This document shows positions 7,116 through 45,054 of a DNA stretch of 64,000 bases, piece after piece. Origin of the DNA: Alistipes sp. (GTDB taxonomy: Bacteria > Bacteroidota > Bacteroidia > Bacteroidales > Rikenellaceae); the NCBI GenBank assembly GCA_017623505.1, contig JAGAOZ010000007.1, positions 1 to 64,000 of the forward strand, read 5' to 3'. The notes below the pieces were generated by a model. The model did not search any database, was not told the DNA's origin, and worked only from the letters and a program-made list of their open reading frames with translations. A program made the translations under genes and the position numbers. Within the stretch, counting starts at the first letter, position 1. Each line of letters begins with the position of its first letter.

Positions 7116-10100
7116 ATGAAAAAGATGCTTTTTTTGATGGTTGCAGCAGTGGCTATGCTCGCAGTATCTTGCTCTAAGGAGGATAGCGGCATTAGCTATG
7201 GCGACAACTTTGTGACATTCAAAGTCACTGCTCCTGAGCTCGCAACTCGTGCTATTGGTGATGGTACGACAGCTCAGACCCTTCACTATGCTGTTTACGA
7301 CGCACAGTGGAATCACATCGCTGCTTTGGACGGCACAACTTCTATCAACATCACTGCTGATGTGAAGATGGAGCTGATCGATGGTAAGGTTTACAACTTT
7401 ATCTTCTGGGCTCAGAACGCCGACGCTCCTTACACTTTCGACGCTGCCGGCAAGAAGATGACTGTAAACTACACAGACATCAAGGCTAACAACGAGAAAT
7501 TGGATGGTTTCTATGCTAAGGTTGAGAATATGAAGGTTCAGAGCGGTATCACTAAGACCGTAGAACTCTTCCGTCCTTTCGCTCAGTTGAACGTCGCTAC
7601 TTTGGATTGGGATACAATGGTTAAGTCAGGCGAGACATTCGACAAGACTGAGGTTAAGGTTAAGGCTTACAACACTTTGGACTTTGTTAGTGGCGCTGTA
7701 AGCGGCGAGGAGGTTCGTACTTTCAACTTCGAGACTATGCCAACTGAGACACTTGCTATCAATGGCAAGAACTACAAGTGGATGGCAATGAACTACCTGC
7801 TCGTAAACGAGAAGGAGTTGGTTAAGGTTACTTTCAACGCCAACAACACTGACGTTGCTGAGAAGGAGTGGGATAACGTTCCTGTTGAGCGCAACCACCG
7901 TACTCACATCTTGGGTAACTTGCTCACAAGCTCAGTTGATTTCGAGGTAATCATCCGTCCTGCTTTCGAGGAGGAGCCTGGTTACTTGTATGACATATGG
8001 GATGGCACTCAGAAGACTGTAACTCCAACAGCAGAGGGTGTATATGAGATTAAGACAGGTAGTGAGTTGGCTTGGTTTGCAAGCGAGATTACTGCTTCTC
8101 CAGCAACATTCAACAACAAGACCGTTAAGCTTATGGCTGACCTCGATATGAGCGAGCACGAGTGGACTCCTATACATACATTTGGCAAGGGCTCAAGTAA
8201 TGTCGTATTCGATGGTAACGGTCATAAAATCGAGGGCCTAAACATCAATAAGGAAGACGGCTATGCAGGCTTTATTAGCCATAATAGCATTAATTGGACA
8301 TTTAAGAATCTTACATTTATAGATCCTCAAATTTCTGTCGGAGGAAACTTCGTAGGAACAGTGATTGGTTGGACATACGGTAAGATTGTCTTGGAAAATG
8401 TTGATGTTAAGGGTGGTTACCTTGAGAGTCGCGCTAACTTAGGTATTCGCATCGGTGGACTGTTGGGCTTCTGTGCAACCCACGAGGGTACAAATCTTTC
8501 ATTTACTGATTGTGATGTGGATGGTATTACAATTCGCGGTTACCACAATTTGGGAGGTTTGGCAGGTTCTGTATTTGCATTTAAGTCAAACGGAATGTCA
8601 ACAATGGATAACTGTACCTCTACAAACAACAAGTTCATCTTGACTAATGCTAAGCAGACAACAGCTACCGAGAGTGCATGGTGGCCATTTGACTGCGATG
8701 CTTATGCAGAGGGTGCCTCTATCAAGACAAACTGTACTCACTCAGGCAACACTGCTGAGTACATAGGTCGTTCTGTTGCTACTGTTGAGGAGCTCGTAAA
8801 CGCAGTCAAGGGTGCTGCTAAGGGCGAGATTTTCAATATCGCAGAGGGTACATATCCTGTTGTTTTGGATGTTGTAGGTCAGAAGGATATTACTTTGAAG
8901 GCTAACGGCGAGGTAATTCTCGCAGGTCTTGACCATCAGACAAATGGTGTTCCTTCAACAGTAAAGGTTGAGGGTATCACTTTCGACAACTCTATCGTTA
9001 CAACACGTGCTGAGGGTGGCTGGTTTACAGGTACAGCTCAGAATATTGCTCCTTGCGTAGGTGCTTGGGGAGGTCACTTCACTTTCGATGACTGTAAGTT
9101 TATCGTTGCCGGCACATCTGGTCGCGAGACTGGTATTATGACTTGGTGGACTACTGATTTGGTTACATTCAAGTTCAACAAGTGCGTATTCGAGGGTAAG
9201 GAGAACCACGCAAGCGCACGTGCAATGCAGATTTACGGTAAGGTTGATATGGAGGTTAATAACTGTACTTTCACAACAGCTAAGGACTACTCTTTGAAGT
9301 ATGTAGCCGGTGAGGGTAACTTTGCTGTATTCAACGGTAACAAGGTTGAGAACTCTGAGAACTTCGTAGAGTTGGGTTCTTCTGCATATCCTGGCGACAA
9401 GTACACTGTTAAGATTAACAACACTACTCTTGGCACAGGTGTAAATCACTACGTAGTAGCTAACCCTGAGAATCAGACTATCTACATTGACAACAAATTG
9501 GATAAGTTGGTATCTGAGGTTGTTGAGGATGTAGCATCAGCAGAGGAGCTCACAGAGGCTATTAAGAATGTAGATGCAAGCCAAACAACCGTAATCAACA
9601 TTGCTACTGGCGAGTACACTATGCCAAGCGGTTTGAATAAGAATGTAACTCTCAACTGTGCTGAGGGCACTGTATTTACAGGTCAATCTAACTTGAACAT
9701 CAGCGGTGCAACAGTTATTGGTGCAACATTCTCTAACCCAACTGGTAGTGCGACTCGCAATACTATCAATGGTACTTTCAAGGGCTGTACCTTCGACGGT
9801 AGCAACGCATCGCGTTACAACTACGCTGGCGAGACAGTAGTATTCGAGGATTGTGTATTTAGCGGTGATGTTTACGGTATCCACTTCGACGGTGGTGAAA
9901 ATGATGTAATCTTCCGCAACTGTACTATCTCTGGTTTCAATGCTTTGGGTAGTGTTCTTACATTGGTTACTTTCGAGGGTTGTACTTTTATAGGTAACGG
10001 CAGAAGCGGTTACAACGGTGCAAACCTTTGGGGTAGCGCAAAGCTCGTTAATTGCGAGTTTACATTCGACGGCACTACTGCAAACGAGTGGATTGACTGC

Positions 10101-10244
10101 ATCGGCGCAGACAAGACTTACGAGTTTGAGAACTGTACAGTTAATGGTGTAGCTTACACAGCAGAGAACTACAAGGAGTTTGACGAGATTTTCTCTCGCA
10201 ACGATGTTGCTATTAAGATTAACGGCGTTGAGTGCGCTTGGTAA
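7116..10244 (+). CDS. Surface lipoprotein: DUF6562-like N-terminal domain plus right-handed beta-helix
   Basis: 1042 residues. The signal peptide ends in a lipobox, AVSC (Cys19), followed by SKEDS, an acidic stretch like the Bacteroidota lipoprotein export signal, so surface exposure is likely. Residues of about 25-280 form a domain with landmarks FWAQNADAPYTFD, RPFAQLNVAT and NYLLVNEKEL, shared with the lipoproteins at 10435 and 55448; I place it in the DUF6562/fimbrillin-like group. From about 310, GLUG-like strands (WTPIHTFGKG, DGNGHKIEGLN) lead into a long parallel beta-helix with recurrent NCTF/DCVF-type turns. Probably an adhesin or glycan-binding protein; ligand unknown. It is followed by its own terminator. 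Confidence 0.82.
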   Translation: MKKMLFLMVAAVAMLAVSCSKEDSGISYGDNFVTFKVTAPELATRAIGDGTTAQTLHYAVYDAQWNHIAALDGTTSINITADVKMELIDGKVYNFIFWAQNADAPYTFDAAGKKMTVNYTDIKANNEKLDGFYAKVENMKVQSGITKTVELFRPFAQLNVATLDWDTMVKSGETFDKTEVKVKAYNTLDFVSGAVSGEEVRTFNFETMPTETLAINGKNYKWMAMNYLLVNEKELVKVTFNANNTDVAEKEWDNVPVERNHRTHILGNLLTSSVDFEVIIRPAFEEEPGYLYDIWDGTQKTVTPTAEGVYEIKTGSELAWFASEITASPATFNNKTVKLMADLDMSEHEWTPIHTFGKGSSNVVFDGNGHKIEGLNINKEDGYAGFISHNSINWTFKNLTFIDPQISVGGNFVGTVIGWTYGKIVLENVDVKGGYLESRANLGIRIGGLLGFCATHEGTNLSFTDCDVDGITIRGYHNLGGLAGSVFAFKSNGMSTMDNCTSTNNKFILTNAKQTTATESAWWPFDCDAYAEGASIKTNCTHSGNTAEYIGRSVATVEELVNAVKGAAKGEIFNIAEGTYPVVLDVVGQKDITLKANGEVILAGLDHQTNGVPSTVKVEGITFDNSIVTTRAEGGWFTGTAQNIAPCVGAWGGHFTFDDCKFIVAGTSGRETGIMTWWTTDLVTFKFNKCVFEGKENHASARAMQIYGKVDMEVNNCTFTTAKDYSLKYVAGEGNFAVFNGNKVENSENFVELGSSAYPGDKYTVKINNTTLGTGVNHYVVANPENQTIYIDNKLDKLVSEVVEDVASAEELTEAIKNVDASQTTVINIATGEYTMPSGLNKNVTLNCAEGTVFTGQSNLNISGATVIGATFSNPTGSATRNTINGTFKGCTFDGSNASRYNYAGETVVFEDCVFSGDVYGIHFDGGENDVIFRNCTISGFNALGSVLTLVTFEGCTFIGNGRSGYNGANLWGSAKLVNCEFTFDGTTANEWIDCIGADKTYEFENCTVNGVAYTAENYKEFDEIFSRNDVAIKINGVECAW

Positions 10245-26164: not shown

Positions 26165-28258
26165 TTATTTCAAGCCCATAGACTCAATGAGGGCCTCAGT
26201 CTCCGGCTTATGGCCACGGAACTCAACATACAACTCCATTGGGTGACGCTGACCTCCCTGCTCCAACAAATGACGGAATGCTGAGGCGGTCTTCTGGTCA
26301 AAGATACCCTTCTCAGCAAACAAAGAGAAAGCATCTGCTGCCAACACCTCTGCCCACTTATAGCCATAATATCCTGCCGCATAACCGCCTGAGAAGATAT
26401 GGGTAAATGCAGTACACATCGCCGTTCCATCAACCCATGGAGTAACCTGTACCGGTGCCATCGCCTCCTTCTCAAATGACTCTATATCGCCTGTATATGG
26501 CTCTGTGAGTGTATGCCATGCCATATCAACCATACCAAATGAGAGCTGACGAACATTCAGATACGCCGCCAAATAGTTCTTCGAAGCCACAATCTTCTCT
26601 ATAAGCTCCGCAGGGATAGGCTCGCCGGTCTGATAGTGCTTAGCCCAAGCATCCAAATACTCCTTCTCGGTTGCCCAATTCTCCATAATCTGCGATGGCA
26701 ACTCTACGAAGTCGCGATATACGCTCGTTCCATTCAATGACTCATACTTACCCTTACCCAGCATGCCATGCAAGGCGTGACCAAACTCATGTAAGAAGGT
26801 CTCCAGCTCATCAAAAGTGAGCAACGAAGGGGTTGTTTCGGTTGGCTTGGTAAAGTTCATCACCAACGACACCAAAGGTCTGGTCTCAACACCATTCTCA
26901 ATCTTTGCACCACGGAACTCAGTCATCCATGCGCCTGAACGCTTCGATGCACGTGGGAAGAAGTCGAGATACAATACAGCCAAGAACTCGCCATTGCTAT
27001 CCTTAACCTCATACGCCGTAACGTCTGGATGATATACCGTAATATCCTTATTAGGAGTAAAAGTCAAACCGTAGAGGTTTGTTGCCGCCATAAATACGCC
27101 CTCGATTACGTTATCCAACTTCAAATATGGCTTAACATCCTCATCACTGATGGCATACTTCTCAGCCTTATATTTCTCTGTATAATACGCCCAATCCCAA
27201 GGCATTACATCGCCCTTGAAGCCCTGTGAGCGAGCATATTTATTTATCATCTTATAATCCTTCTTGGCATATTTTATAGTAGCATCACGCAACTCATCCA
27301 AGAAATCGTTTACCGTTGGGATATTCTCCGCCATACGCTCCGCGAGAACATAATCTGCATGGTTCTCAAAACCGAGCAACTTAGCGATTTTCATTCTCAA
27401 CTCAACAATCTTATGGATAATAGGTGTATTATCGAACTCTCCACCCTTAGCGCGTGAATTATAGGCTTTATACAGCTGCTCCTTCAAATCGCGCTGTGAA
27501 GAATAGGTCATAAAAGGCACATAGCTTGGTGCTTGCAAAGTCACGGTCCAGCCCTGCTCGCCACGAGCCTTTGCCTCTGCGGCCAAAGCCTCACGAACAA
27601 ACTCAGGCAACTCGGCAACCTTTGCTTCGTCGGTAATATTGAGTGTAAAAGCATTTGTCGCAGCCAAAGCATTCTGACCATACATCAATGTTGCCTCCGA
27701 CAGCTCGGTAGTGTATTGACGATACAACTCCTTATCCTCATCCGAGAGTGCTGCGCCCGAACGGGTAAAGTTCTTGTAAGTCTTCTCCAGCAGACGAATA
27801 TCCTCAGCCGACAAGCCCTCACGTGAACCCTCATAGACAGCCTTTACACGCTCAAAGAGTTTAGGATTAAGGCTGATATCATTACTCAAAGCCGTCATCT
27901 TTGGCTGAATACGCAACGCAATTGCATCCATCTCGTCGGATGTATCTGCCTCACGCAAGTTATAATATACTCCTGCAATACGATTCAGCAACTTACCCTG
28001 ATTTTCCATCGCCACGATAGTATTCTCAAATGTAGGAGCCTCAGGATTGTTTACCAAAGCATCTAACTCGGCACGTGCCTCAGCAATTGCAAACTCAAGT
28101 GCTGGCTCGTAATCTCCAACCTGAATCTTATCGAATGGAGGAGTTTGGTAAGGTGTATTCCACTCCACAAGCAATGGATTTTCTCTCTGCGCCGATGCAG
28201 GCTCACCCATAGCTGTCATAATAGCTGTTACTGACATAATCAAACAAAACTTTTTCAT
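26165..28258 (-). CDS. dcp: M3 family metallopeptidase, peptidyl-dipeptidase Dcp-like (exported)
   Basis: 697 residues, the usual Dcp length. The signal peptide ends around ASA-Q (residue 23), so the enzyme is periplasmic. The zinc site HEFGHALHG lies near residue 488 with the downstream Glu in the PSQIMENWA segment. Substrate-binding blocks FSGGYAAGYYGYKWAEVLAADAF are near residues 615-637. It releases dipeptides from peptide C-termini. It is the second gene of a tandem pair with a paralogue 32 bases upstream, and probably cotranscribed with it. Confidence 0.93.
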   Translation of the reverse strand: MKKFCLIMSVTAIMTAMGEPASAQRENPLLVEWNTPYQTPPFDKIQVGDYEPALEFAIAEARAELDALVNNPEAPTFENTIVAMENQGKLLNRIAGVYYNLREADTSDEMDAIALRIQPKMTALSNDISLNPKLFERVKAVYEGSREGLSAEDIRLLEKTYKNFTRSGAALSDEDKELYRQYTTELSEATLMYGQNALAATNAFTLNITDEAKVAELPEFVREALAAEAKARGEQGWTVTLQAPSYVPFMTYSSQRDLKEQLYKAYNSRAKGGEFDNTPIIHKIVELRMKIAKLLGFENHADYVLAERMAENIPTVNDFLDELRDATIKYAKKDYKMINKYARSQGFKGDVMPWDWAYYTEKYKAEKYAISDEDVKPYLKLDNVIEGVFMAATNLYGLTFTPNKDITVYHPDVTAYEVKDSNGEFLAVLYLDFFPRASKRSGAWMTEFRGAKIENGVETRPLVSLVMNFTKPTETTPSLLTFDELETFLHEFGHALHGMLGKGKYESLNGTSVYRDFVELPSQIMENWATEKEYLDAWAKHYQTGEPIPAELIEKIVASKNYLAAYLNVRQLSFGMVDMAWHTLTEPYTGDIESFEKEAMAPVQVTPWVDGTAMCTAFTHIFSGGYAAGYYGYKWAEVLAADAFSLFAEKGIFDQKTASAFRHLLEQGGQRHPMELYVEFRGHKPETEALIESMGLK

Positions 28259-28290
28259 ATTCTATCTTCAATTAATATTGTTTCAACTCA

Positions 28291-30768
28291 TTACCGCTCA
28301 ATCTTTCCAATAGGCTCAGCGTCCAGACCCTCAAGCTGACTCAAATCCTTCTCCATTGGTGCGGTAGCCTCTGTTGCGACAGCAACCTCTTCGCCGCCAT
28401 CTACTGCAACATCTTCAGCCGGCACCTCCTCAATCAGAACTGCCGTTTCAGGCATAGCTCCAACCTCCTTGGAGTCAATCTCAATAGCCTGAGGCGCATT
28501 TGCTTTTTGCTCAGCCTCACGCTTTGCCGACTCCTCGGCGCGACGTCGGCGCGACTCCTCAGCAATCTGTCGAGCCTTTTCGCGGGTATCGACACGTGGT
28601 ATTTCTATCTCATCCAAAGAGTCAGACATAATAAGGTCATCCAAGTCGGCATCACGAATAAAACCTCGAGCCAACAGCAAAGCACGCTTATCCGGCTCAG
28701 CACCACGGAACGCCCTATACATATCCATTCCGTTACGTGTACCTCCACGAGACAGCACCTCATCACGGAACTTCTTGGCTATCTCTCTGTTAAACAGGTC
28801 GCCACTCTCAACAAAAGCCTGGAACGCATCCTTATCCAGCACCTCCGCCCAGATATAGAAATAGTAGCCGGCAGAGTATCCTCCATCAAAAATATGGCTG
28901 AAATAGGTATAGTGATAACGTGGTGAAATCTGTGGAATCAAACCACGCTTATCATTTAGTACGTTACGCTCAAACTCCGTAATATCAATCTCTTTATCCG
29001 TGCTTATCGAGTGTATCTCCAAATCAGATAACGCCGCAGCCAACAACTCAGTCATCGCAAAGCCCTCATTGAATGAAGAGCTGCGATGTATACGACGAAT
29101 CATATCACTTGGCATAACATCTCCACTACGATAATGAACAGCATATTGCTTAAGCATTGCAGAGGTAAATGCCCAATTCTCCATAATCTGCGATGGCAAC
29201 TCGACAAAATCACCCTCCACATCAGCCAAACCCTGATACTTCACATCTGCAAACAGAGCATGTAGTGCGTGTCCAAACTCATGGAAGAGTGTCTCCGTCT
29301 CATCTATTGACAATAGAGCCGGAGTTGTTGCCGTAGGGCGCGTAAAGTTACAAACGATACTTACTACCGGCGTCACACGCATACCATTCTCGTCATAAGA
29401 TTGAGGCACATAACTACCACACCACGCGCCACCGCTCTTACCCTCTCTTGGATGGAAATCAAAGAGCAAAACACCCAAGAAAGCGTCATTATCATCTATC
29501 ACCTCATAGGCCTCAACCTCCTCATGATACAGAGGCACCGTCACAGGACGGAATGTAATGCCATAGAGCCTATTTGCAAGACTGAATATTCCGCTCTTGA
29601 CATTATCCAACGTAAGATACTCTCTCACCTTCGACTCCTCAAGGCTGTAATTCTTCACTCTGACCTTCTCAGCATAATACCACCAATCCCATGGCTCGAA
29701 AGTCGCATCCGTACCATTATCCGATAGAAACATTGGCAACATATCGTTGAGTTCAGACTTGGCTGCCTTCAAAGCATCCGCCCATATTCCCTCCAAAAGC
29801 TCATAGGCCGCCTCAGGGGTAGAGGCCATCTGGTCCGAGATTACATACTCAGCATAGTTATTGTAACCCAATATCTTGGCCTTCTCGCGTCTTAACTCAG
29901 CCATACGCTTTACGACAGCTTTATTGTCGTTAGCGTTGTCATTATTACCTCGTGAGATATAGGCCTTATATATCTTCTCTCGCAGCCCGCGCTCCTGAGA
30001 ATATGTCAGGAATGGCAGCATACTCGGCTTATCGAGAGTAAACACATAACCATTCTCCAAACCCTCCGCCTTTGCTTGCTCGGCTGCCGCATCGCGTACC
30101 GTATTTGGCAATCCACCAAGTTGATTTGCCTGCAAGGTGAGTTTAAAAGCGTTGTTTTCTGCCAACAGATTATTTCCAAACTTAACTTGCAAAAGCGATA
30201 GCTCGCTATTTATCTGCTTCAGTTCGCTCTTCAGGCTATCACTAAGACGTGCGCCGGAACGGATAAATTGGTCATAAATCTTCTCAACAAGACGAAGCTG
30301 CTCCGCGTCAAGTTTCAATGTGTTACGCGCATTATACACCTGCTCAATCTTATTGAACAGTTGCTCATTCATCAATATTGCGTCGTAGTGCGCTGCAAGT
30401 TGCGGCATAACCTCTTCGGAAATCTGCTGCATCTGCGTATCGGTATTTGCAGCGTTGAGCATACCAAATACTAAATCCACACGCGAGAGCATCTTACCTG
30501 AGTTATCGTATGCCAATATCACATTGTCAAACGTAGGCTTATCCTCCGAATTAACAATAGAATCTATCTCAGCCAAATGACGCTTCATACCCTCTTCAAA
30601 GGCGGGTTTGAAGTGCTCATTCACTATGCGGTCAAACGGAGGAATACCATACGGAGTCTCCCAACTATCCTCAAAAAATGGATTTGCGGGTATCTTCTGC
30701 TCCTCACTACATGAACAAAATAGCATAAGCGTTAGAATTGATGCGAATAAATACGAAAAGTGCTTCAT
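28291..30768 (-). CDS. M3 family metallopeptidase lipoprotein with acidic C-terminal extension
   Basis: 825 residues. The N-terminal signal ends LFCSC with SEEQ after it, so it is a lipoprotein, unlike its downstream paralogue, which has a plain signal peptide. The Dcp-like catalytic domain (about 30-690) has HEFGHALHALF near residue 496 and IFDGGYSAGYYFYIWAEVL. Past about residue 690 a tail of about 130 residues follows, first a basic/acidic helix (REKARQIAEESRRRRAEE) then an Ala/Glu/Val-rich stretch, not part of the M3 family. Peptidyl-dipeptidase activity is likely. The tail could mediate envelope contacts; that is inference. It shares a palindromic overlapping promoter with rsmE. Confidence 0.9.
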   Translation of the reverse strand: MKHFSYLFASILTLMLFCSCSEEQKIPANPFFEDSWETPYGIPPFDRIVNEHFKPAFEEGMKRHLAEIDSIVNSEDKPTFDNVILAYDNSGKMLSRVDLVFGMLNAANTDTQMQQISEEVMPQLAAHYDAILMNEQLFNKIEQVYNARNTLKLDAEQLRLVEKIYDQFIRSGARLSDSLKSELKQINSELSLLQVKFGNNLLAENNAFKLTLQANQLGGLPNTVRDAAAEQAKAEGLENGYVFTLDKPSMLPFLTYSQERGLREKIYKAYISRGNNDNANDNKAVVKRMAELRREKAKILGYNNYAEYVISDQMASTPEAAYELLEGIWADALKAAKSELNDMLPMFLSDNGTDATFEPWDWWYYAEKVRVKNYSLEESKVREYLTLDNVKSGIFSLANRLYGITFRPVTVPLYHEEVEAYEVIDDNDAFLGVLLFDFHPREGKSGGAWCGSYVPQSYDENGMRVTPVVSIVCNFTRPTATTPALLSIDETETLFHEFGHALHALFADVKYQGLADVEGDFVELPSQIMENWAFTSAMLKQYAVHYRSGDVMPSDMIRRIHRSSSFNEGFAMTELLAAALSDLEIHSISTDKEIDITEFERNVLNDKRGLIPQISPRYHYTYFSHIFDGGYSAGYYFYIWAEVLDKDAFQAFVESGDLFNREIAKKFRDEVLSRGGTRNGMDMYRAFRGAEPDKRALLLARGFIRDADLDDLIMSDSLDEIEIPRVDTREKARQIAEESRRRRAEESAKREAEQKANAPQAIEIDSKEVGAMPETAVLIEEVPAEDVAVDGGEEVAVATEATAPMEKDLSQLEGLDAEPIGKIER

Positions 30769-31586: not shown

Positions 31587-33575
31587 ATGTTCTACGTATT
31601 TTTATTGTTGGCACTTATGGCAATAGCAACCCTGCTATTCATTACGCCTCAACGTGCCAAAGTATGGGTAGCAACCTCGATAATCGCCGCTACCGCCATT
31701 GGGCTTGTAGTGCCGGCAGTCGGTGTTCTTACGGGTCTGCTACCGACATTCCAATACGCCATAACGAGTGCTCTGTTTGGTCAGGAGACGATTTCGATAG
31801 ATTCGTTATCGGCAATATTTATAATCATCATTGCCGTTGCGGGTATTACAACCTCAATCTACTCCAAAGGTTATCTTCAGCAATACCTCGACAAAAAATC
31901 GTCGGCGCACATCTCACTGCACTACCTTTCGCTTGTGATTCTCGTGCTGGCGATGTTTATGGTTGTTATGTCGAGCGGTGGTTTTTCATTCCTCTTCTCG
32001 TGGGAGTTGATGACCATAGCCTCTTTCGTGCTTATTCTCTTCGATGCACAGCGACGCGAGGTGACACGTGCTGCTCTGACCTACTTGGTTATGATGCACA
32101 TTGGTTTTGTGCTACTTATTGCAGCCTTCTCTACACTCTACGCCTTTACCGGCCAGGCATCTTTTGATGCTATTTCGCTCTACATATCAGACGGCAAGAC
32201 TATTCTTTTGTTCGTTCTATTCCTGCTTGGTTTTGGAATGAAGGCGGGACTATTCCCTATGCACATCTGGCTACCTGAGGCACACCCGGCAGCACCATCA
32301 CACGTCTCAGCTATTATGTCAGGCGTAATGATTAAGACCGGCGTTTATGGTGTGATGCGTGTTATATGGCAACTTAATCAGGCTAATGAGCTGTATATAA
32401 TAGGTATCATTATTCTTATTGCCGGCATCATCACCGGTCTATGGGGCATACTACTTGCCACGACACAAAACGACATGAAACGTCTGCTGGCATATTCGAG
32501 TATGGAGAACGTCGGCATCATCTTTATCGGCCTCGGTATTGCCACTCTGAGCAAGGCTTCGGGAGCTGAATCAATAGCGACAATCGCGCTCTGTGGTACA
32601 CTGCTTCACTTGATAAACCACTCGCTTTTCAAGTCATTGCTTTTCTATGGAGCGGGTAACATCTACTCCCAAACACACACTACACACCTTGACAAGTTGG
32701 GCGGCATAGCCAAACACATGCCTCTGACAGCTATTCTTTTCTTGGTTGCCACAGTTGCTATATGTGCCTTGCCTCCTTTGAATGGTTTTGTCGGCGAGTT
32801 CCTCATCTATCTTGGTATGTTCGATAGTGTACGCGACGGTATGAATACCCTACCAGCTGCCGCAGGACTTCTCAGCATGGCCCTGATTGGCGGTTTCGTA
32901 GTGCTTGCTTTCTCGAAGCTGTATAGCATCGTTTTCCTCGGTTCCCCTCGTCATCATCACGTTGCCGAGAGCCGCGAAGTGGATAATTATCGCATTGTGG
33001 CGATGGTTGTCCCTGCTATCATTATCTGCTTGATTGGTATTCTTCCACAATACTCTATCAAAGTCATTGAGGGCGTTGCACTACAATTCCTACCATCAGC
33101 CACTCCTATTTTGGAGCAATACATCACGCCAACACTCTTCTACGTATCTCTCACGGTATTGATGTTAATCATCGTTATCGCTTTGCTCTACGTTATCAAG
33201 TCACGAGCACAGCGTCGCCGTGTTGTCACTCACGGTCCAACTTGGGGCTGTGGCTTCACCTCGTCAAATATACACATGCAATATACGGGCGAATCCTTCG
33301 CCGAGGGTGTTGAGTCCATCGCAACATCAATAACCAAAAACACCATCGAAGGAAAGGCTGTCGGCAAGGGCGAAATCTTCCCTACAAAGCACAACTACGG
33401 TATTAAACATAAGGATAAGATTGACTCCTTGTTTGCCGCTTGGTGGGTTGAGTTCCTGCGCCTTATCAACAAGCGTATCATGAGTCTGCGTACAGGAAAG
33501 ATTAACCACTACATTCTCTTTGCGCTGCTCTTCTTGGTTGCAATATTTATTCTGTCACTCCTTAATCTGATATAA
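31587..33575 (+). CDS. hyfB: HyfB-like proton-conducting membrane subunit (NuoL/Mrp family) of an Ehr-like complex
   Basis: 662 residues with about 16 hydrophobic helices. Core antiporter-like residues look intact: Glu140 in SWELMTIASF, Lys219 in GMKAGLFPMHIWLPEAH with His233, and Lys250 in SGVMIKTGVYG. Further on come NDMKRLLAYSSMEN and the HLINHSLFKSLLF block. The C-terminal cytosolic segment with PTWGCGFTSSNIHMQYTG and a last helix is specific to HyfB/HycC rather than NuoL. It should translocate H+ or Na+ across the inner membrane. It is the first of six tightly packed genes (spacings 1-12 bases). See the large and small subunits for why this is not a true hydrogenase. Confidence 0.9.
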   Translation: MFYVFLLLALMAIATLLFITPQRAKVWVATSIIAATAIGLVVPAVGVLTGLLPTFQYAITSALFGQETISIDSLSAIFIIIIAVAGITTSIYSKGYLQQYLDKKSSAHISLHYLSLVILVLAMFMVVMSSGGFSFLFSWELMTIASFVLILFDAQRREVTRAALTYLVMMHIGFVLLIAAFSTLYAFTGQASFDAISLYISDGKTILLFVLFLLGFGMKAGLFPMHIWLPEAHPAAPSHVSAIMSGVMIKTGVYGVMRVIWQLNQANELYIIGIIILIAGIITGLWGILLATTQNDMKRLLAYSSMENVGIIFIGLGIATLSKASGAESIATIALCGTLLHLINHSLFKSLLFYGAGNIYSQTHTTHLDKLGGIAKHMPLTAILFLVATVAICALPPLNGFVGEFLIYLGMFDSVRDGMNTLPAAAGLLSMALIGGFVVLAFSKLYSIVFLGSPRHHHVAESREVDNYRIVAMVVPAIIICLIGILPQYSIKVIEGVALQFLPSATPILEQYITPTLFYVSLTVLMLIIVIALLYVIKSRAQRRRVVTHGPTWGCGFTSSNIHMQYTGESFAEGVESIATSITKNTIEGKAVGKGEIFPTKHNYGIKHKDKIDSLFAAWWVEFLRLINKRIMSLRTGKINHYILFALLFLVAIFILSLLNLI

Positions 33576-33578
33576 CCT

Positions 33579-34493
33579 ATGGCAGTACTACTTAATACAA
33601 TATTGATGATTGTCGTAGCATTGACAATTACCGGAGTGATTAATCGCACTCGCGCTCTTTTATCAGGACGCAAAGGCATCCCATTTCTCCAGCACATCCG
33701 CGATGTAAAGGTTCTCTGGCGCAAAGGCTCTGTCTATTCGACCACTACAACCACCCTATTCAAGATAGCCCCTGCTATCTACTTAGGAGTAAGCATCGTG
33801 GCTATGCTCTTTATCCCTGTGGCAAACCTCTATCCCCTCATCTCGTTTGAGGGCGATGTTATCTGTTTTGCCTATACATTGGCTTTGGCTCGTCTTGCCA
33901 TAATCTTGGCAGCGATGGATACAGGCAGCTCTTTCGAAGGCATGGGAGCAGCACGTGAGGCCCTCTATGGCGCACTCATTGAGCCGGCTCTGATGATGGG
34001 CTTCGCTACACTTGCAATGTTCTGTGGTTACACATCCTTTGCCGACATTTTTGAGTTCGAACAGGCTTTCGACCTTCACCATACAATCGTCATGCTCCTT
34101 ATAGCCTACCTATTTATCCAAGTAGCATTTATTGAGGCAGGACGTGTCCCTGTTGATGACCCACGCACTCACCTTGAATTAACGATGATTCACGAGGTGA
34201 TGTGCCTGGATTATAGCGGAATAGATTTGGCTATGATTAAGATAGCCGGCTGGCTGAAGACCGCCTGCTTTGCGATGATTGCCGCCAACGCGATAGCCAC
34301 TACGTGCTGTTTTTATTGGTGGTTTGCCACTCCGGTAGCCATTCTACTCACAGCTCTTGCCATCGGCATCGTCGAGTCTACACAAGCACGCAACAAGTTG
34401 GTTCGCAATATCACTTTTGTTGTCACCATCTCAGCCATGGCTACGCTGATATTCTTCATCGGCTATTTGTTACACCTAAATATCGACATATAG
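33579..34493 (+). CDS. hyfC: HyfC/HycD-like membrane subunit (NuoH family)
   Basis: 304 residues, about eight hydrophobic helices. Family landmarks are SSFEGMGAAREALYGALIEP (about 125-144) and EAGRVPVDDPRTHLELTMIH (about 186-205), the acidic loops that in complex I and formate hydrogenlyase couple the peripheral arm to ion movement; their Glu, Asp and Arg residues are present. It follows the HyfB-like gene by 3 bases and precedes the HyfE-like gene by 1. The membrane anchor of the complex appears functional even though the redox arm has lost its cofactors. Confidence 0.9.
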   Translation: MAVLLNTILMIVVALTITGVINRTRALLSGRKGIPFLQHIRDVKVLWRKGSVYSTTTTTLFKIAPAIYLGVSIVAMLFIPVANLYPLISFEGDVICFAYTLALARLAIILAAMDTGSSFEGMGAAREALYGALIEPALMMGFATLAMFCGYTSFADIFEFEQAFDLHHTIVMLLIAYLFIQVAFIEAGRVPVDDPRTHLELTMIHEVMCLDYSGIDLAMIKIAGWLKTACFAMIAANAIATTCCFYWWFATPVAILLTALAIGIVESTQARNKLVRNITFVVTISAMATLIFFIGYLLHLNIDI

Positions 34494-34494
34494 T

Positions 34495-35124
34495 ATGCTA
34501 CTCTCGTTAATTATTCTATATATCATAACCCTGACCTACCTTTCGATAGTTGAGCGTTTCCGCAACTACGTATCGGTCATCACTATCCAGGGCTGGATAT
34601 TGTTGGGCATAGCCCTGTTGCGACTCCACTCATTAGATTGGATAGAGCTCGGCTTTATCGTCACCGAGACTCTTATTTTCAAGGCTATCATCGTACCGGC
34701 TATTCTACAACGAGTAATCAAGAAGACGAAGATTAATCGTGTCCGCACGTCGGGAACATCGCAGTTCAATTCGCTGATGCTCTCTATTACCGTCCTGATA
34801 ATAAGCACTATCATCACCTACTATGTTGCCGACTCTTCGGTACACATGGTCTTCTTCGGCGTAGCGCTCTATGCTCTGCTCAGTGGCCTTATTTTGATAG
34901 TTCTTCGCTCACGCATCTTCGCCCACATGATTGGTTTCTTGATTATTGAGAATGGCGTATTCTTATTCTCTATGGCCATCGGTGTTGAGATGCCTATTTT
35001 GATTAACTCGGCTATTTTGCTCGATATTCTCATGTCGGTTTTGATGTTGGGTATGTTTATGACTAAGGTCGATAAGCAGATTCACACCGACGATAGTGAC
35101 AATCTAACCCATGTAAAAGACTAA
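34495..35124 (+). CDS. hyfE: HyfE-like membrane subunit (NuoK-related)
   Basis: 209 residues, about six hydrophobic helices, ending in a short charged tail. It matches the hydrogenase-4 component E family by size, by the HMIGFLIIENGVFLFS block (Glu in the helix) and by its place between NuoH-like and NuoN/L-like genes. It probably contributes the NuoK/J-type part of the proton path. HyfE is found in the Hyf and Ehr-type complexes and is absent from classical Hyc formate hydrogenlyase, so its presence places this operon closer to Hyf/Ehr. Confidence 0.85.
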   Translation: MLLSLIILYIITLTYLSIVERFRNYVSVITIQGWILLGIALLRLHSLDWIELGFIVTETLIFKAIIVPAILQRVIKKTKINRVRTSGTSQFNSLMLSITVLIISTIITYYVADSSVHMVFFGVALYALLSGLILIVLRSRIFAHMIGFLIIENGVFLFSMAIGVEMPILINSAILLDILMSVLMLGMFMTKVDKQIHTDDSDNLTHVKD

Positions 35125-35128
35125 CGCT

Positions 35129-36532
35129 ATGATATATATCTTCTTAGCTATATGGCTATCAATAGCCTGTGCCACATTTTTCGTCAAGCAGAAGAGCGTT
35201 GTTCGTCTACTGTGCGGATTATATATCGCCAGCCACATCGCCTTTGCTGCAACAATATTCGCCGGAGGATATTTCACCTTCTCATCGGGCTCTCTATTCA
35301 CGTTTGACCACGCAGGAACACTCTTCTACCTACTTCTGGTTATCGTGTCGGGCTTTGTTTTGATTCACTCTGAGGAGTACCTCAAGGATGATACTCTATC
35401 GAGCTATAAACAATATTTTGCACTATTGATGCTCCTTATTGCAGCCATCACAGGTGTCTATTTCGCCAACAATATTGCCGTTACGTGGATTCTTCTTGAG
35501 GCTACGACGTTGTGCAGTGCCGGTATCATCTACCACCGTCATAGCGAGGATGCACTGGAGGCTACATGGAAATATCTGTTTGTATGCTCTACGGGTATCG
35601 CAATCGCCTACTTAGGCATACTACTTCTTAGTGCCGCAGCCAACAATACATCTCTCGACTACGACCAATTAGGAACACTTATCACCCAGGGCAATCCACT
35701 CTATTTGAAGGTTGCATTCCTGCTGATATTGACCGGATATAGCTGTAAGATGGAGATTTTCCCTCTCTACACTATCGGTGTAGATGCCAACTTTGCCGCT
35801 CCTGCACCCGCGTCGGCTCTTATCTCGACAGGTCTTGTAAATGCCGGCTTTTTGGCCATCTTCCGCATCTATCGACTATACGCCGAAACAGCTATCTTCG
35901 AGTGGGTACAGCATGTGATGATTATCATTGGTATAATGAGTCTGCTGGTCGGAGCTCTCTTCTTGCGTCGAACGAATAACTACAAACGTTTCCTTTCATA
36001 CTCCACCGTCGAGAATATGGGTATTGTGGCCATAGGTCTTGGCATAGGAGGCATCGGCGTCTGGGCTGCTATTTTCCATGTTATATGCCACACGTTCATC
36101 AAGAGCAGCCTTTTCCTTCAGATTGCCGTTGTACGCCAAATCTATAATGGTTACCGTATCAACCGCATTGGTGACTATATCAGCATCAATAAGGTTGGAG
36201 CTGTGGGCTTACTGCTCGGTATGGTGGCTATATTGGCCTTCCCACCGTCACCTCTATTTATATCGGAGCTGACTATTTTGGCTAAAACGCTATTTACAAA
36301 TCAGTGGTGGCTCACAGTGATTATTACAGTGATTATGTGCATTGTTCTCTACTCTGTCTGCCTGCGCATCATTCGTTTGTGCTATCAGCCTAACCAAGAT
36401 GAGCTGCACCTATCACGCATCAATCGACGACTCTCATACAGTGCTCTGTCGCTTATGCTCGCTGCATTTGTCTTTGGTCTTTGGCAACCCGATTTCCTAC
36501 TATCTATTATTGATAAAATTGCAACATTCTAA
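35129..36532 (+). CDS. hyfF: HyfF-like proton-conducting membrane subunit (NuoN/L family)
   Basis: 467 residues with about 14 hydrophobic helices. It keeps the Glu of the TWILLEATTLCSAG helix and the Lys of GYSCKMEIFP. The usual LPDAH that follows that Lys is replaced by GVDAN, although APAPASALIS still follows. Later it has NNYKRFLSYSTVENMG and VICHTFIKSSLF. It is the second antiporter-like subunit in the operon, so the membrane arm would have two such pumps plus the NuoH-like subunit. Gaps to neighbours are 4 and 3 bases. Confidence 0.87.
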   Translation: MIYIFLAIWLSIACATFFVKQKSVVRLLCGLYIASHIAFAATIFAGGYFTFSSGSLFTFDHAGTLFYLLLVIVSGFVLIHSEEYLKDDTLSSYKQYFALLMLLIAAITGVYFANNIAVTWILLEATTLCSAGIIYHRHSEDALEATWKYLFVCSTGIAIAYLGILLLSAAANNTSLDYDQLGTLITQGNPLYLKVAFLLILTGYSCKMEIFPLYTIGVDANFAAPAPASALISTGLVNAGFLAIFRIYRLYAETAIFEWVQHVMIIIGIMSLLVGALFLRRTNNYKRFLSYSTVENMGIVAIGLGIGGIGVWAAIFHVICHTFIKSSLFLQIAVVRQIYNGYRINRIGDYISINKVGAVGLLLGMVAILAFPPSPLFISELTILAKTLFTNQWWLTVIITVIMCIVLYSVCLRIIRLCYQPNQDELHLSRINRRLSYSALSLMLAAFVFGLWQPDFLLSIIDKIATF

Positions 36533-36535
36533 GCT

Positions 36536-38050
36536 ATGATATATCACATTACAGATAATCTATCTAAAGCTATCCCATTGGCCGACATTCCGCTGGTGGA
36601 GTATGCTGCGCTATATCACGATTTGGAGCAGCGTCTACAAGACGAGCGTTATCACGTTGCACACTATTTTGCGCGCCTTGAAGAGGGACAACTCCGTTTT
36701 TATCTCATCCTACTTGACGATAAGCAACATAATATCCTGCTCAGCTCCCATGCTTTGGATTATTACGACGAGGTGACGCTACCATCTCTTACAGCACTAC
36801 ATCCGGCACTACACCCATTTGAGCGAGAGATAGCCGAGTTGTTTAGTGTCAAGTTTGGCTCTATGCCATGGCTCAAACCTCTTAGGTTTTCGGCAGATAG
36901 GCTCAACCGCAACTCTACTATCGACAACTACCCTTTCTACCACATCGAAGGAGAGTCCTTGCATCAAGTAAACGTAGGTCCTATCCATGCCGGAATCATT
37001 GAGCCCGGAGCTTTTCGTTTTATCTGCAATGGCGAGAGTGTGCTTCATTTAGAGATTGCTTTGGGCTACCAACACCGAGGTCTTGAGCGAGAGTTCTCTA
37101 ACGACAGCAACCGCCTGCGACAAACCCTCTTAGCAGAGAATATAGCTGGCGATAGTGCCGTCTCACACGCCTCAGCCTTTGCCTTAGCAATTGAGAAACT
37201 CACAGACTTTACGCCCTCTGAGGCTCTGATTATTGAGCGTCATATTGCTCAGGAGTTGGAGCGTATGGCTATGCATATTGCCGATACAGGAGCACTCTGT
37301 ATGGATGTTGGCTACCAGCTGGGACAGGTCGCTTGCGAGGCTCTGCGTACCATGACCATCAATACCACACAGGCTTGGTGTGGCAACCGTTTTGGCAAGG
37401 GACTTATCCGCCCTATGGGAACCAATAAGCCTCTTAACTCGGCTAAGATTGATATGATTCGTCAGAACGTTGCCGAGATTGCTCGTCGTTATGAGGAGGT
37501 GCGCCAAGACATCAAGACCTCACCCACACTTTTGGCTCGTTTTGAGCAATGTGGCAATGTTGGCAGAGCCGAGATGTTGCGTATCGGTGGTGTAGGTATG
37601 GCTGCCAGGGCAAGCAACGCGCCACGTGACATTCGCCTATCACATCCCTACGGTCTGTTTGGCAAAGAGCTTCAACACGAATCTGTTATCAAACGTCAGG
37701 GCGACGTCATGGCTCGTCTTATGGTGCGTTGTCGCGAGGTACTCCAGAGCGCAGAATATATACAGCAGCTACTCAATCTATACTCTACCGCTACGGCTAC
37801 ACAACAACCCGATTATGAGGCCAAATTAACCCCCGAAGCATTGTCACTATCGCTTACCGAGGGCTGGAGAGGCGAGATTTGCCACGTAGCCATTACCGAC
37901 AAACAAGGCAACATAGCAACATATAAAGTCAAAGACCCAAGTCTTCACAATTGGTTAGCTTTAGCTTTGGCTGTAAGGAGTGAGGGAATATCCGACTTCC
38001 CAATATGCAATAAAAGTTTTAACCTTTCGTACTGCGGTCACGATTTATAA
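36536..38050 (+). CDS. NuoC-NuoD / HyfG-like large subunit lacking all NiFe-binding cysteines (Ehr-type)
   Basis: 504 residues. Residues of about 1-125 are the NuoC-like domain and 145-504 the NuoD/NiFe-hydrogenase large-subunit domain. It is recognisable from YQHRGLEREF (178-187), GNRFGKGLIRPMGTN, and the C-terminal DFPICNKSFNLSYCGHDL. In a NiFe hydrogenase the motifs RxCGxC and DPCxxC supply four metal-binding cysteines. The aligned residues here are Ala204, Ser207, Ser498 and Gly501, so the NiFe site cannot form. The protein ends three residues after the second motif, so it also lacks the C-terminal peptide that hydrogenase endopeptidases remove. This fits the Ehr group, whose activity is unknown. 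Confidence 0.88.
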   Translation: MIYHITDNLSKAIPLADIPLVEYAALYHDLEQRLQDERYHVAHYFARLEEGQLRFYLILLDDKQHNILLSSHALDYYDEVTLPSLTALHPALHPFEREIAELFSVKFGSMPWLKPLRFSADRLNRNSTIDNYPFYHIEGESLHQVNVGPIHAGIIEPGAFRFICNGESVLHLEIALGYQHRGLEREFSNDSNRLRQTLLAENIAGDSAVSHASAFALAIEKLTDFTPSEALIIERHIAQELERMAMHIADTGALCMDVGYQLGQVACEALRTMTINTTQAWCGNRFGKGLIRPMGTNKPLNSAKIDMIRQNVAEIARRYEEVRQDIKTSPTLLARFEQCGNVGRAEMLRIGGVGMAARASNAPRDIRLSHPYGLFGKELQHESVIKRQGDVMARLMVRCREVLQSAEYIQQLLNLYSTATATQQPDYEAKLTPEALSLSLTEGWRGEICHVAITDKQGNIATYKVKDPSLHNWLALALAVRSEGISDFPICNKSFNLSYCGHDL

Positions 38051-38062
38051 ATCGAATAGATT

Positions 38063-38824
38063 ATGATTTTACCTAAGATAAAAGTCCTGCTCAGCCACGG
38101 CAAGCAGAATATTCCCGACTTAAACAAAGTTGAGCTAAGCGAGGAGTTTCGAGGACGTCCCGAATTGACCATAACCGACTCTACTGAAGAGTTGGAAGCT
38201 GCCGCTGCGTTATGCCCTACCAAGGCAATAACCACCTCTCCTTTTACCCTTGACTTAGGTCGTTGCATGTTTTGCGGAGAGTGCGCATTGCGAGCGCCTC
38301 AGAATATTCGCTTCACCACAGACTACCGATTAGCAACTACCCGTCGTGAGGCATTGGTGATAACCCCCGAAACGCGACAAGTAGAGTTTCACGCCGAGGA
38401 TGTAGACGACAAAAAGTCTAAACTCTTCCGCTCATCACTCAAGCTGCGTCAGGTTTCAGCCGGTGGCGACGCCTCAACCGAGATGGAGTTAAATGCTACG
38501 GGTAACGTAAACTTCGATTTCGGACGCTACGGCGTCGAGTTTACTGCATCCCCTCGCCACGCCGACGGCGTTGTTATCACAGGTCCCATCTCGGCAAATA
38601 TGGCAGAGCCTTTGCAGATATGCTACGATGCGATTGCTGAGCCAAAACTTATTATCGTATGTGGCACCGATGCCTGCTCAGGAGGTCTTTTTGCCAACAG
38701 CAAGGCTGTAAATCGCGAGTTTCTAACACGCCACAAAGTAGATTTGTGGATGCCCGGCGCACCAACCCATCCTATGACTTTTATCGACGGTGTGATGAAC
38801 TATTTGGGACGAAAGAAGCGATAA
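38063..38824 (+). CDS. Half-ferredoxin fused to a NuoB/HyfI-like small subunit without its FeS cluster ligands
   Basis: 253 residues. Residues of about 40-90 are a HycF-like ferredoxin domain. One cluster's four ligands remain (Cys51 of CP, and Cys68, Cys71, Cys74 of CxxCxxC). The other CxxCxxC is absent and its fourth ligand is Ala78. Residues of about 140-250 are the NuoB/HycG domain (PRHADGVVITGP, MPGAPTHP). All four N2-type ligands are replaced: the expected GCxxC reads GNVNF (148-151), GxCA gives Asp203, and PGCPP gives Ala233. A fused two-domain subunit with a single cluster is coherent rather than random decay, since exactly one complete set of ligands survives. Last gene of the operon. 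Confidence 0.85.
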   Translation: MILPKIKVLLSHGKQNIPDLNKVELSEEFRGRPELTITDSTEELEAAAALCPTKAITTSPFTLDLGRCMFCGECALRAPQNIRFTTDYRLATTRREALVITPETRQVEFHAEDVDDKKSKLFRSSLKLRQVSAGGDASTEMELNATGNVNFDFGRYGVEFTASPRHADGVVITGPISANMAEPLQICYDAIAEPKLIIVCGTDACSGGLFANSKAVNREFLTRHKVDLWMPGAPTHPMTFIDGVMNYLGRKKR

Positions 38825-43957: not shown

Positions 43958-44500
43958 ATGAAAAAATTTGCGGAGTTGTTTTGGTCCTTCTTTAAGATTG
44001 GACTCTTCACTTTCGGCGGTGGCTATGCAATGATATCCATCATCGAGAGAGAGGTCATACGCCGCAAAGGATGGATTGAGCAGAAAGAGTTTTTAGACCT
44101 TCTAACTCTCGCACAATCGGCCCCCGGTCCTATCGCGCTGAATACATCTGTCTTCGTAGGCTATAAGATGTATGGCTATCGTGGTGCACTCTCGGCGCTG
44201 TTAGGTGTTGCACTCCCCTCTTTTCTGATTATTTTATTGATAGCCATATTCTTTGCTCAGTTCCGCCACAACCCCGTTGTTGATGCAGCATTCAAAGGTA
44301 TGCGCCCGGCCGTTGTAGCCCTCATTATTGCACCGATTCTTGGATTCACTAAAGGGATGAAGTGGTATCTGCTTGCCGTAGCAGCCGCCGTTGCTTTGGC
44401 CGTTTGGTATTTGGGCATATCACCTATATACATATTATTGGCAGCTGCCCTCATTGGTTTGACCATAGCAGCACGCCGCGGAAAGGAGGTTGAGCAATGA
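43958..44500 (+). CDS. Chromate transporter family half-protein, first of a pair
   Basis: 180 residues, about five hydrophobic helices. It carries the CHR signature FTFGGGYAMISIIE near the N-terminus and QSAPGPIALNTSVFVGYKMYG (split near 49-69). It is a half-size (about 180-residue) member; full-size ChrA has two fused copies. A partner half follows with a 4-base ATGA overlap, so the two probably form a heterodimer. Family members export chromate, but for gut bacteria the physiological anion is unknown. Confidence 0.88.
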   Translation: MKKFAELFWSFFKIGLFTFGGGYAMISIIEREVIRRKGWIEQKEFLDLLTLAQSAPGPIALNTSVFVGYKMYGYRGALSALLGVALPSFLIILLIAIFFAQFRHNPVVDAAFKGMRPAVVALIIAPILGFTKGMKWYLLAVAAAVALAVWYLGISPIYILLAAALIGLTIAARRGKEVEQ

Positions 44501-45054
44501 TTTACCTTCAACTCTTCATCAGCTACCTTAAGATAGGTTTCTTCGGCTTTGGCGGAGGATATGCTATGCTATCACTCATACAGAATGAGGTTGTCGTACA
44601 AAACCAATGGCTGACCAACGCTGAGTTTACCGATATTGTCGCTGTCTCACAGATGACCCCTGGCCCCATAGCCATCAACTCTGCCACCTACGTTGGCTAT
44701 GAGGTTGCAGGCTTTTGGGGAGCTGTAGTTGCTACTTTTGCGGTCTGCCTTCCTGCGCTTACCTTGATGATTCTACTTACGAAATTTTACCTAAAACTTC
44801 GTAAAAATCGCTATATGCAGACCACTATCGGTGCTATGCACCCTGTTATTATCGGTATGATTCTCGCAGCCGCACTGATGCTTATCTTCCCCGACAGCAC
44901 CGATGCTGCAAGTTTTATAGATGGCTGGAGTTGGCTGCTTTTCTTCGGAACGCTTGTAGCTTGTTATAAAAAAGTAAACCCGATATTGCTTATCGCATTA
45001 TCGGGCGTTATGGGAATCGTCATTTACTACCTCCCGTCACTACTCTGCATATAG
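44497..45054 (+). CDS. Chromate transporter family half-protein, second of a pair
   Basis: 185 residues, about five hydrophobic helices. GFFGFGGGYAMLSLI and SQMTPGPIAINSATYVGYE are the counterparts of the first half's motifs. Its ATG overlaps the stop of the first half (ATGA), indicating coupled translation. Paired half-size proteins are expected to insert with opposite topology. The 3' end overlaps the convergent DUF1343 gene by 15 bases and no terminator is visible between them. Confidence 0.88.
   Translation: MIYLQLFISYLKIGFFGFGGGYAMLSLIQNEVVVQNQWLTNAEFTDIVAVSQMTPGPIAINSATYVGYEVAGFWGAVVATFAVCLPALTLMILLTKFYLKLRKNRYMQTTIGAMHPVIIGMILAAALMLIFPDSTDAASFIDGWSWLLFFGTLVACYKKVNPILLIALSGVMGIVIYYLPSLLCI

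Follow-up and report, generated by a model that had tools for sequence, protein, structure and literature searches.

An Ehr-type relative of complex I in Alistipes that lacks the ligands of both inner metal sites

What does a machine of the hydrogenase-4/complex I type do once both of its inner metal sites are gone? The question is raised by a six-gene operon in a 64,000-nucleotide stretch of DNA from Alistipes sp. (assembly GCA_017623505.1, contig JAGAOZ010000007.1, positions 1 to 64,000), the whole of which we call the window. The operon occupies positions 31587 to 38824 of the forward strand as six same-strand open reading frames (ORFs) with intergenic gaps of 1 to 12 bp and, as judged from its sequence, is an energy-converting hydrogenase-related (Ehr) relative of formate hydrogenlyase (FHL) and complex I that has probably been removed from the usual electron transfer. 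The means by which complex I turns redox chemistry into ion pumping has been a question for many years. A relative without both terminal redox sites separates the two halves of this coupling problem, and a natural, conserved one makes coupling testable without the usual electron transfer. This six-gene machine is kept in many gut and other bacteria with both inner metal sites gone.

The founding paper on Ehr complexes is said to be that of Marreiros, from 2013. Three papers (PMC6349859, PMC7304191, and PMC10284858) describe the complexes as having group-4-like large and small subunits, antiporter-like membrane subunits, and no NiFe ligands, and their function as unknown or merely suspected. 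The operon shares the group-4-like subunits, membrane subunits resembling NuoL/N, HyfE, and NuoH, and the absence of NiFe ligands, and thus the Ehr membership proposed in an earlier note on this DNA fits the published description. That note had read the genes as HyfB, HyfC, HyfE, HyfF, HyfG, and HyfI (here B, C, E, F, G, and I). The six Hyf-type genes and their boundaries stand (Table 1), with the correction that the supposed HyfI is a fusion of a ferredoxin domain with a NuoB-type domain. In E. coli the corresponding gene set runs from hyfA to hyfJ.

The large subunit was aligned with HycE, HyfG, and NuoCD of E. coli as well as with 18 more hydrogenases of the group 4 type, and conservation was counted over 117 distinct clade sequences, each with a coverage of 70% or more. 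Ala204, Ser207, Ser498, and Gly501 stand where the NiFe cysteines would be, just as the earlier note had it. Position 204 is Ala in 112 sequences, Ser in 2, Thr in 2, and Cys in 1; position 207 is always Ser or Thr, and Ser498 and Gly501 are invariant. Because the same substitutions recur across all these distinct proteins, they are not a sequencing error. Asp206, Tyr499, and Asp503 are likewise invariant, and C500 and H502 are found in 115 and 108 sequences, respectively. The C-terminal maturation peptide is absent, again in agreement with the earlier claim: the protein stops 3 residues past the last NiFe position, while HycE and HyfG extend 32. As for the hyp maturation genes, of which the note had seen none, none of the 27 Ehr-bearing genomes searched for HypD, the window's own among them, gave a match, with E. 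coli positive as the control; the other Hyp genes were not searched. With the NiFe cysteines, the maturation tail, and HypD all missing, a true hydrogenase is excluded. The best sequence match of the large subunit in the Protein Data Bank (PDB) is FHL HycE (7z0s_E, 2.7e-29), which is also the top fold match of its AlphaFold2 (AF2) model (predicted local distance difference test score, 87.0). The quinone site of NuoD has a His and a Tyr; a histidine of the large subunit, H151 (117/117), lies near the NuoD-like position, and the placement of the Tyr position is of low confidence.

The main point of the analysis, which the earlier note overlooked, lies in the small subunit, where the cysteines of the proximal (N2-type) [4Fe-4S] cluster have been replaced as well. 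The window protein reads Asp136, Thr139, Asp203, and Ala233 at the ligand positions and so retains none of the four Cys. Among 118 distinct relatives, counted after removal of duplicate loci, position 136 is Asp (114) or Glu (4), position 203 is Asp (68), Glu (48), or Ala (2), and position 233 is Asn (67), Ala (47), or Thr (4); Cys never occurs at these three and is found at position 139 in 45 relatives. Glu140 and Glu142, beside the former ligands, are present in 118/118. Other NiFe-less relatives do keep the cluster: 48 distinct small subunits have all four N2 cysteines and read GGCNGCELE or similar around the first two, two further rows (L248 and L286) are truncated, and with these N2-bearing relatives available, the mapping of the lost cysteines is unambiguous. 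Since the proximal motif is absent, the operon's group is a variant subgroup of Ehr; the published descriptions consulted do not name this motif as an Ehr trait. A second N2-less lineage (L252 to L258) has N, V/G, E, and D at the four positions, where the window clade has D, a variable residue, D/E, and N or A. The four cysteines of the ferredoxin domain, on the other hand, are kept in 118/118 relatives and in 120/120 N2-less rows when the second lineage is included. The VIA-align list covers small-subunit residues 115 to 253 only and is hence silent on the ferredoxin part. The predicted and compared folds resemble NuoC/D and NuoB, and the AF2 loops at or beside the former sites (G, 496 to 501; I, 144 to 147) are of low confidence.

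Table 1. Genes, former metal-binding sites, and a neighboring transporter pair in the window (positions of the whole stretch; aa, amino acids)
Feature	Position	Strand	Evidence
B, HyfB/NuoL-like antiporter-type membrane subunit, 662 aa	31587..33575	+	PF00361, 1.7e-58; NCBIfam hydrogenase 4 subunit B, 8.5e-157, below cutoff
C, HyfC/NuoH-like membrane subunit, 304 aa	33579..34493	+	PF00146 (NADHdh), 3.2e-26
E, HyfE-like membrane subunit, 209 aa	34495..35124	+	NCBIfam hydrogenase 4 membrane subunit, 1.6e-12, below cutoff; no Pfam match; synteny
F, HyfF/NuoN-like antiporter-type membrane subunit, 467 aa	35129..36532	+	PF00361, 5.4e-40
G, HyfG-like large subunit, NuoC+NuoD fusion, 504 aa, without NiFe ligands or maturation tail	36536..38050	+	PF00329 (Complex1_30kDa) and PF00346 (Complex1_49kDa)
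Former NiFe site 1, Ala204-Gly-Asp206-Ser207, replacing CxxC	37145..37156	+	Alignment with HycE/HyfG/NuoCD
Former NiFe site 2, Ser498-Tyr-Cys500-Gly501-His502-Asp503-Leu, replacing DPCxxC, protein end	38027..38047	+	Alignment and conservation
I, small subunit, N-terminal ferredoxin domain with one [4Fe-4S] motif fused to NuoB/HycG-like domain, 253 aa	38063..38824	+	Weak Fer4 and Oxidored_q6
Sole remaining cluster motif, Cys51-Pro ... Cys68-x2-Cys71-x2-Cys74	38213..38284	+	Conservation
Former N2 ligands 1 and 2, Asp136 and Thr139, motif GGDxSxExE with Glu140 and Glu142	38468..38488	+	Alignment with N2-bearing relatives
Former N2 ligand 3, Asp203, GTDA versus GACA	38669..38671	+	Comparison with N2-bearing relatives
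Former N2 ligand 4, Ala233, PGAPTHP versus PGCPPHP	38759..38761	+	Residue counts in 118 relatives, never Cys
Half-size chromate-family (Chr) transporter gene pair, 5 kb downstream; system membership doubtful	43958-44500, 44497-45054	+	PF02417, 1.6e-54 and 3.1e-51

The membrane arm has been treated differently by evolution. We listed charged positions conserved in over 95% of 85 to 93 clade rows. In the HyfB-like subunit, E140, K219, K250, K349, and E404 are kept in 99 to 100% of 85 rows and are the same in E. coli HyfB; E135, E186, D193, E200, E206, D211, and E266 of the HyfC-like subunit are acidic in all of 88 rows; and E124, E144, K207, K286, K325, and E380 of the HyfF-like subunit occur in all of 93 rows and also in E. 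coli HyfF. The positions named are shared with E. coli HyfB, HyfC, and HyfF. This conservation of the ion-path charges indicates that the ion-moving part is under strong constraint, whereas the redox part has been dismantled. Some N2-bearing Ehr operons (L227, L229, L324, L330, and L332) carry two consecutive HyfB-like genes.

Two large-subunit trees were built, with 72 and 88 rows. Loci L257 and L259 (masked or incomplete rows) were left out of both, and L258 and L276 (long branches) were left out of the second, in which L336 has no N2 state; the trees contain fetched NiFe-less relatives and no named reference Ehr, such as Geobacter GSU0739-45. All NiFe-less proteins form one clade, with support of 100 in the Shimodaira-Hasegawa-like approximate likelihood ratio test (SH-aLRT) in both trees. 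The clade is nearest FHL/Hyf (86 and 99) and lies outside the true hydrogenases, and complex I forms a branch separate from the operon's large subunit. Thus, neither the four NiFe cysteines nor a position within the true Hyf/Hyc hydrogenases, either of which would have spoken against the earlier assignment, was found. N2-bearing Ehr surround the window clade, the nearest being L225 (99 in both trees); as a single branch, the window clade is weakly supported (88 and 73). Parsimony gives two N2 losses, and the approximately unbiased (AU) test does not reject a single origin (P = 0.132); judging from these sequences, the cluster was probably lost twice.

Relatives of the large subunit are encoded by at least 568 stretches in named genomes. 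Among the 80 matches listed, 78 bear Bacteroidota names, with one Spirochaetes and one Phycisphaerae, and the nearest named relatives among them are Alistipes and other Rikenellaceae. The small subunit has a match below 1e-70 in 67 of 295 genomes of the order (the window's own included, one match partial) and an ortholog in 37 of 101 genomes of the family. The gene order rsmE-B-C-E-F-G-I, for which the earlier note had proposed to search relatives, recurs in 16 of 20 family loci fetched, in 14 of them with a dcp-like gene preceding rsmE, and B-C-E-F-G-I is common to many of the N2-bearing relatives fetched. In three of the 20 family loci, G and I are separated by about 1.5 to 3.3 kb. G is present in all 36 other family genomes with I, including G072, G025, and G013, where the two lie apart; in fragmented genomes such as G073, G068, and G033, it matches only in parts. 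Six of six chosen family genomes without I gave only complex I-like matches. That G and I are retained together even when unlinked looks like a working complex. A free-standing role of the small subunit is excluded: although some loci lack an adjoining G, none of the 36 I-bearing genomes searched is without a G match. At locus L322 (583-15156), one complete Ehr operon follows another; the small subunit of the first bears N2 and has no ferredoxin part, whereas that of the second is N2-less.

The known machines compare as follows. Hyc/Hyf (group 4a) are the nearest hydrogenases in the trees, have a membrane arm of the HyfB, C, E, and F type, and provide, with HycE, the best solved relative of the large subunit; the operon differs in lacking the NiFe cysteines, the proximal cluster, the maturation tail, and any HypD found, in the fusion of ferredoxin and NuoB, and in its smaller number of genes. 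Complex I shares the NuoC/D and NuoB folds and a homologous membrane arm, but the operon has no N2 ligands, has Hyf-type gene content, and sits on a separate branch of the tree. In the sulfane-sulfur reductase MBS/Mbx, NiFe function has likewise been lost from a complex I-type machine. According to PMC7684303, MBS reduces polysulfide at a proximal [4Fe-4S] cluster held by three Cys, and in both complex I and MBS, the proximal cluster donates electrons to the substrate. The operon has no Cys at all among these ligands, which excludes an MBS-like sulfur reductase. With both NiFe and proximal cluster gone, electrons following the route used in hydrogenases, complex I, and MBS would get no farther than the ferredoxin domain. 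The earlier note had offered two guesses, a quinone-like reaction and a protein conformational change. A quinone-like reaction of the usual kind is not supported, because the proximal cluster that donates the electrons has lost its ligands too; conformational or other non-redox coupling has become the likelier of the two.

For the working of the operon, we tentatively favor, with clearly less than even confidence in the whole, a non-redox ion-translocating complex tied to inorganic carbon. Its observed basis is the anatomy of the operon, the conservation of residues, the position in the trees, and the fact that G and I are kept together. The NiFe site would have been lost before the divergence of all Ehr sequences read, and the proximal [4Fe-4S] site in the ancestor of the operon's subgroup. 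What remains is the ion-translocating membrane arm of B, C, E, and F with its key charges, one ferredoxin-type cluster, and a peripheral module of G and the NuoB-type domain of I, in which the old metal pocket is rebuilt with invariant Asp/Glu and Ser/Thr. The most likely mechanism would be a non-redox event in this pocket, for instance a small substrate being bound or converted while protons are taken up or given off, which the conserved charged axis would link to the movement of H+ or Na+, just as DAB/MpsAB link a NuoL-like channel to the supply of CO2/HCO3-; the ferredoxin-type cluster would then be a structural element or redox gate. The complex might supply inorganic carbon either through CO2 hydration, which it would drive or use, or through a Na+/H+ gradient that serves HCO3- uptake. 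It is probable that no redox chemistry takes place at the old site. The role in inorganic carbon is possible rather than probable, with lower odds in the window genome than in the second lineage or in certain N2-bearing relatives.

Inorganic carbon is the best-supported role because of the likeness to DAB and MpsAB, which published accounts describe as using NuoL-like channels that work without redox and as being linked to CO2/HCO3-; NuoL-like MpsA, acting together with MpsB, complements an E. coli mutant in carbonic anhydrase. The operon has two NuoL-like PF00361 subunits, a resemblance in working and not kinship of the whole complex. It differs in having a complex I-like peripheral arm in place of the PF10070 partner (DabA/MpsB) with its zinc site; a scan limited to the six operon proteins and two flanking ones gave no match to PF10070.

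The gene neighborhood of relatives gives further hints. We mined 117 Ehr loci (59 of the window clade, 52 N2-bearing, and 6 of the second lineage; 115 distinct, with two same-genome pairs), excluding L032 to L099 (mostly Alistipes) and five refetched duplicates (L297 to L301). A SulP transporter gene lies within four genes of the operon at 12 loci (6 N2-bearing, 5 second lineage, and 1 window clade), which makes SulP the second most frequent nonoperon family; all others except HTH-PTS-EIIA occur at 6 loci or fewer. In all six second-lineage loci, SulP (5) or the Na+/bicarbonate transporter SbtA (1) directly follows I, with SbtA replacing SulP in L255 and both present in L254 (Sbt_1 matches, E values of 1.8e-112 and 4e-121). 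Neither family was found in 22 hydrogenase/complex I control loci. The best PDB match of the L252 SulP is 6ki1, presumably the structure of BicA. Downstream of the window-clade operon in L322, on the other strand, are a beta-carbonic anhydrase gene (2.8e-40), at a distance of 1.15 kb, and a formate/nitrite channel gene; the anhydrase probably has a signal peptide, as judged by eye. Transport of HCO3- has been described in the literature for SbtA, SulP, and a Chr transporter. Ehr complexes themselves are known; added here are the loss of the proximal cluster and the association with SulP/SbtA, neither of which is mentioned in the parts of the Ehr literature covered by our search, the original Ehr description not among it. 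The family thereby gains a testable lead, and cultured bearers exist among gut bacteria; all six genes occur in Alistipes montrealensis kh20 and Millionella massiliensis (L063 and L122) and in a genome titled Alistipes senegalensis (L070). Of the 52 N2-bearing loci, 27 (among L226 to L231, L240 to L250, and L324 to L334) have an adjoining HTH-PTS-EIIA gene, for an HTH domain fused to a PTS EIIA-like domain, in most cases immediately ahead of HyfB; the count is 0 of 59 in the window clade, and a SulP-STAS-EIIA fusion lies between G and I in L233; the HTH-EIIA neighbors suggest that Ehr may be under phosphotransferase control.

Several observations weigh against the inorganic-carbon reading. SulP is near only 6 of 52 N2-bearing loci and 1 of 59 mined window-clade loci, the latter (L128) a 181-aa fragment without a Pfam match; SbtA was not found in the mined window-clade loci, and the operon has no DabA (PF10070). 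In Rikenellaceae, 31 of the 34 loci with Chr on the stretch (some genomes counted twice) have these genes downstream of the small subunit at a distance of no more than 0.4 kb, and the distance is 5 to 7 kb in L056 to L058. Irrespective of Ehr, however, the Chr family is present in 82 of the 101 family genomes, so that the adjacency may be inherited synteny, and we do not regard these transporters as establishing a link to bicarbonate in Alistipes. Beta-carbonic anhydrase is present in 13 of 101 family genomes, 6 of them Ehr bearing, and no trade-off with Ehr is seen. A bolder version, in which a branch of the complex I superfamily, its NiFe and N2 replaced by a pocket lined with carboxylates, abandoned electron transfer for a non-redox CO2/HCO3- reaction (vectorial hydration or gradient-coupled bicarbonate accumulation) as an analogue of DAB/MpsAB, perhaps reached twice independently, spread through Bacteroidales and some others and with the lone cluster as a redox gate, we consider rather doubtful.

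The conserved ferredoxin cluster also counts against a purely non-redox machine, as it suggests that electrons still matter. A ferredoxin or a formate dehydrogenase (FDH)/NuoEF-type module might reduce this cluster, which would pass electrons to a quinone or other acceptor at a new place and so drive the pump. The ferredoxin-domain cysteines are invariant, and in L238 the window-clade operon is adjoined by NuoEF-like genes (PF01512 and PF01257) and an MFS transporter gene, with a molybdopterin-enzyme-like ORF (by eye) farther upstream. The published literature contains an FDH-Ehr hypothesis and reports Geobacter Ehr, whose N2 state was not checked, to be more abundant on formate than in hydrogen-containing conditions. 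Ehr and complex I also occur apart more than chance predicts, as if interchangeable: of 101 family genomes, 37 have Ehr, 27 complex I, 4 both, and 41 neither (Fisher P = 0.009, kinship ignored), and of the 58 better genomes, 27 have Ehr, 20 complex I, and 4 both (P = 0.005, kinship ignored). These labels were taken from ortholog-search rows, with G005 (a short I-like fragment) counted under neither. The window assembly (2.0 Mb, 93.7% complete) has a single match to PF00346 (49-kDa subunit), the operon's own large subunit, and so no complex I large subunit was found there (other hydrogenase families were not searched). Electrons arriving at the ferredoxin cluster, however, would meet neither a proximal cluster nor a NiFe site on the way to the old substrate chamber, and no feeding module was recognized by eye among the window ORFs flanking the operon, relatives not having been searched with profiles. 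We regard redox drive as somewhat unlikely, but as a close runner-up to the favored reading.

A Mrp-like cation/proton antiporter, redox gated or ungated, would exchange Na+ for H+ in the membrane arm and use the peripheral arm as a lid or sensor. B, C, and F keep the ion-path charges, the antiporter-like subunits match Mrp families, and Na+ extrusion by an antiporter feeding BicA-type Na+/HCO3- uptake, as proposed in PMC7784846, would fit the SulP/SbtA neighbors. A mere lid would not need the conserved residues at the former sites (D206, S498, Y499, G501, and D503 in G; E140 and E142 in I), and Nqr/Rnf-type ion pumps are already present in 27 of 27 Ehr-bearing genomes searched, with two matches in the window assembly. 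This explanation, third in order, seems unlikely.

Less likely again is that the rebuilt pocket binds a new cofactor or metal (through D136, D/E203, and N/A233 of I and D206, C500, H502, and D503 of G) for chemistry of an unknown kind, redox or not. Both N2-less lineages place Asp, Asn, or Glu at three of the four Cys positions, which would be a parallel change if the losses were independent. C500 and H502, however, are not found throughout and are shared by some Ehr that bear N2, position 233 is Ala in 47 of 118 relatives, the window included, and the low-confidence modeled loops noted above lie at or beside these sites. A decaying hydrogenase relic en route to loss would account for the missing metal sites and for the absence of an I ortholog from 8 of 18 same-genus genomes (the window's own among the 18), but it is very improbable given the open frames, residue-level conservation across the order and other phyla, and G and I kept together in 36/36 genomes, also unlinked.

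Elsewhere in the window, two tandem peptidase-like genes (26165-30768; 697 and 825 aa, Dcp-like by eye) encode proteins of which the larger has a charged C-terminal extension, and a 1042-aa protein is encoded at 7116-10244, its sole match below 1e-8 being DUF6562, a family of unknown function.

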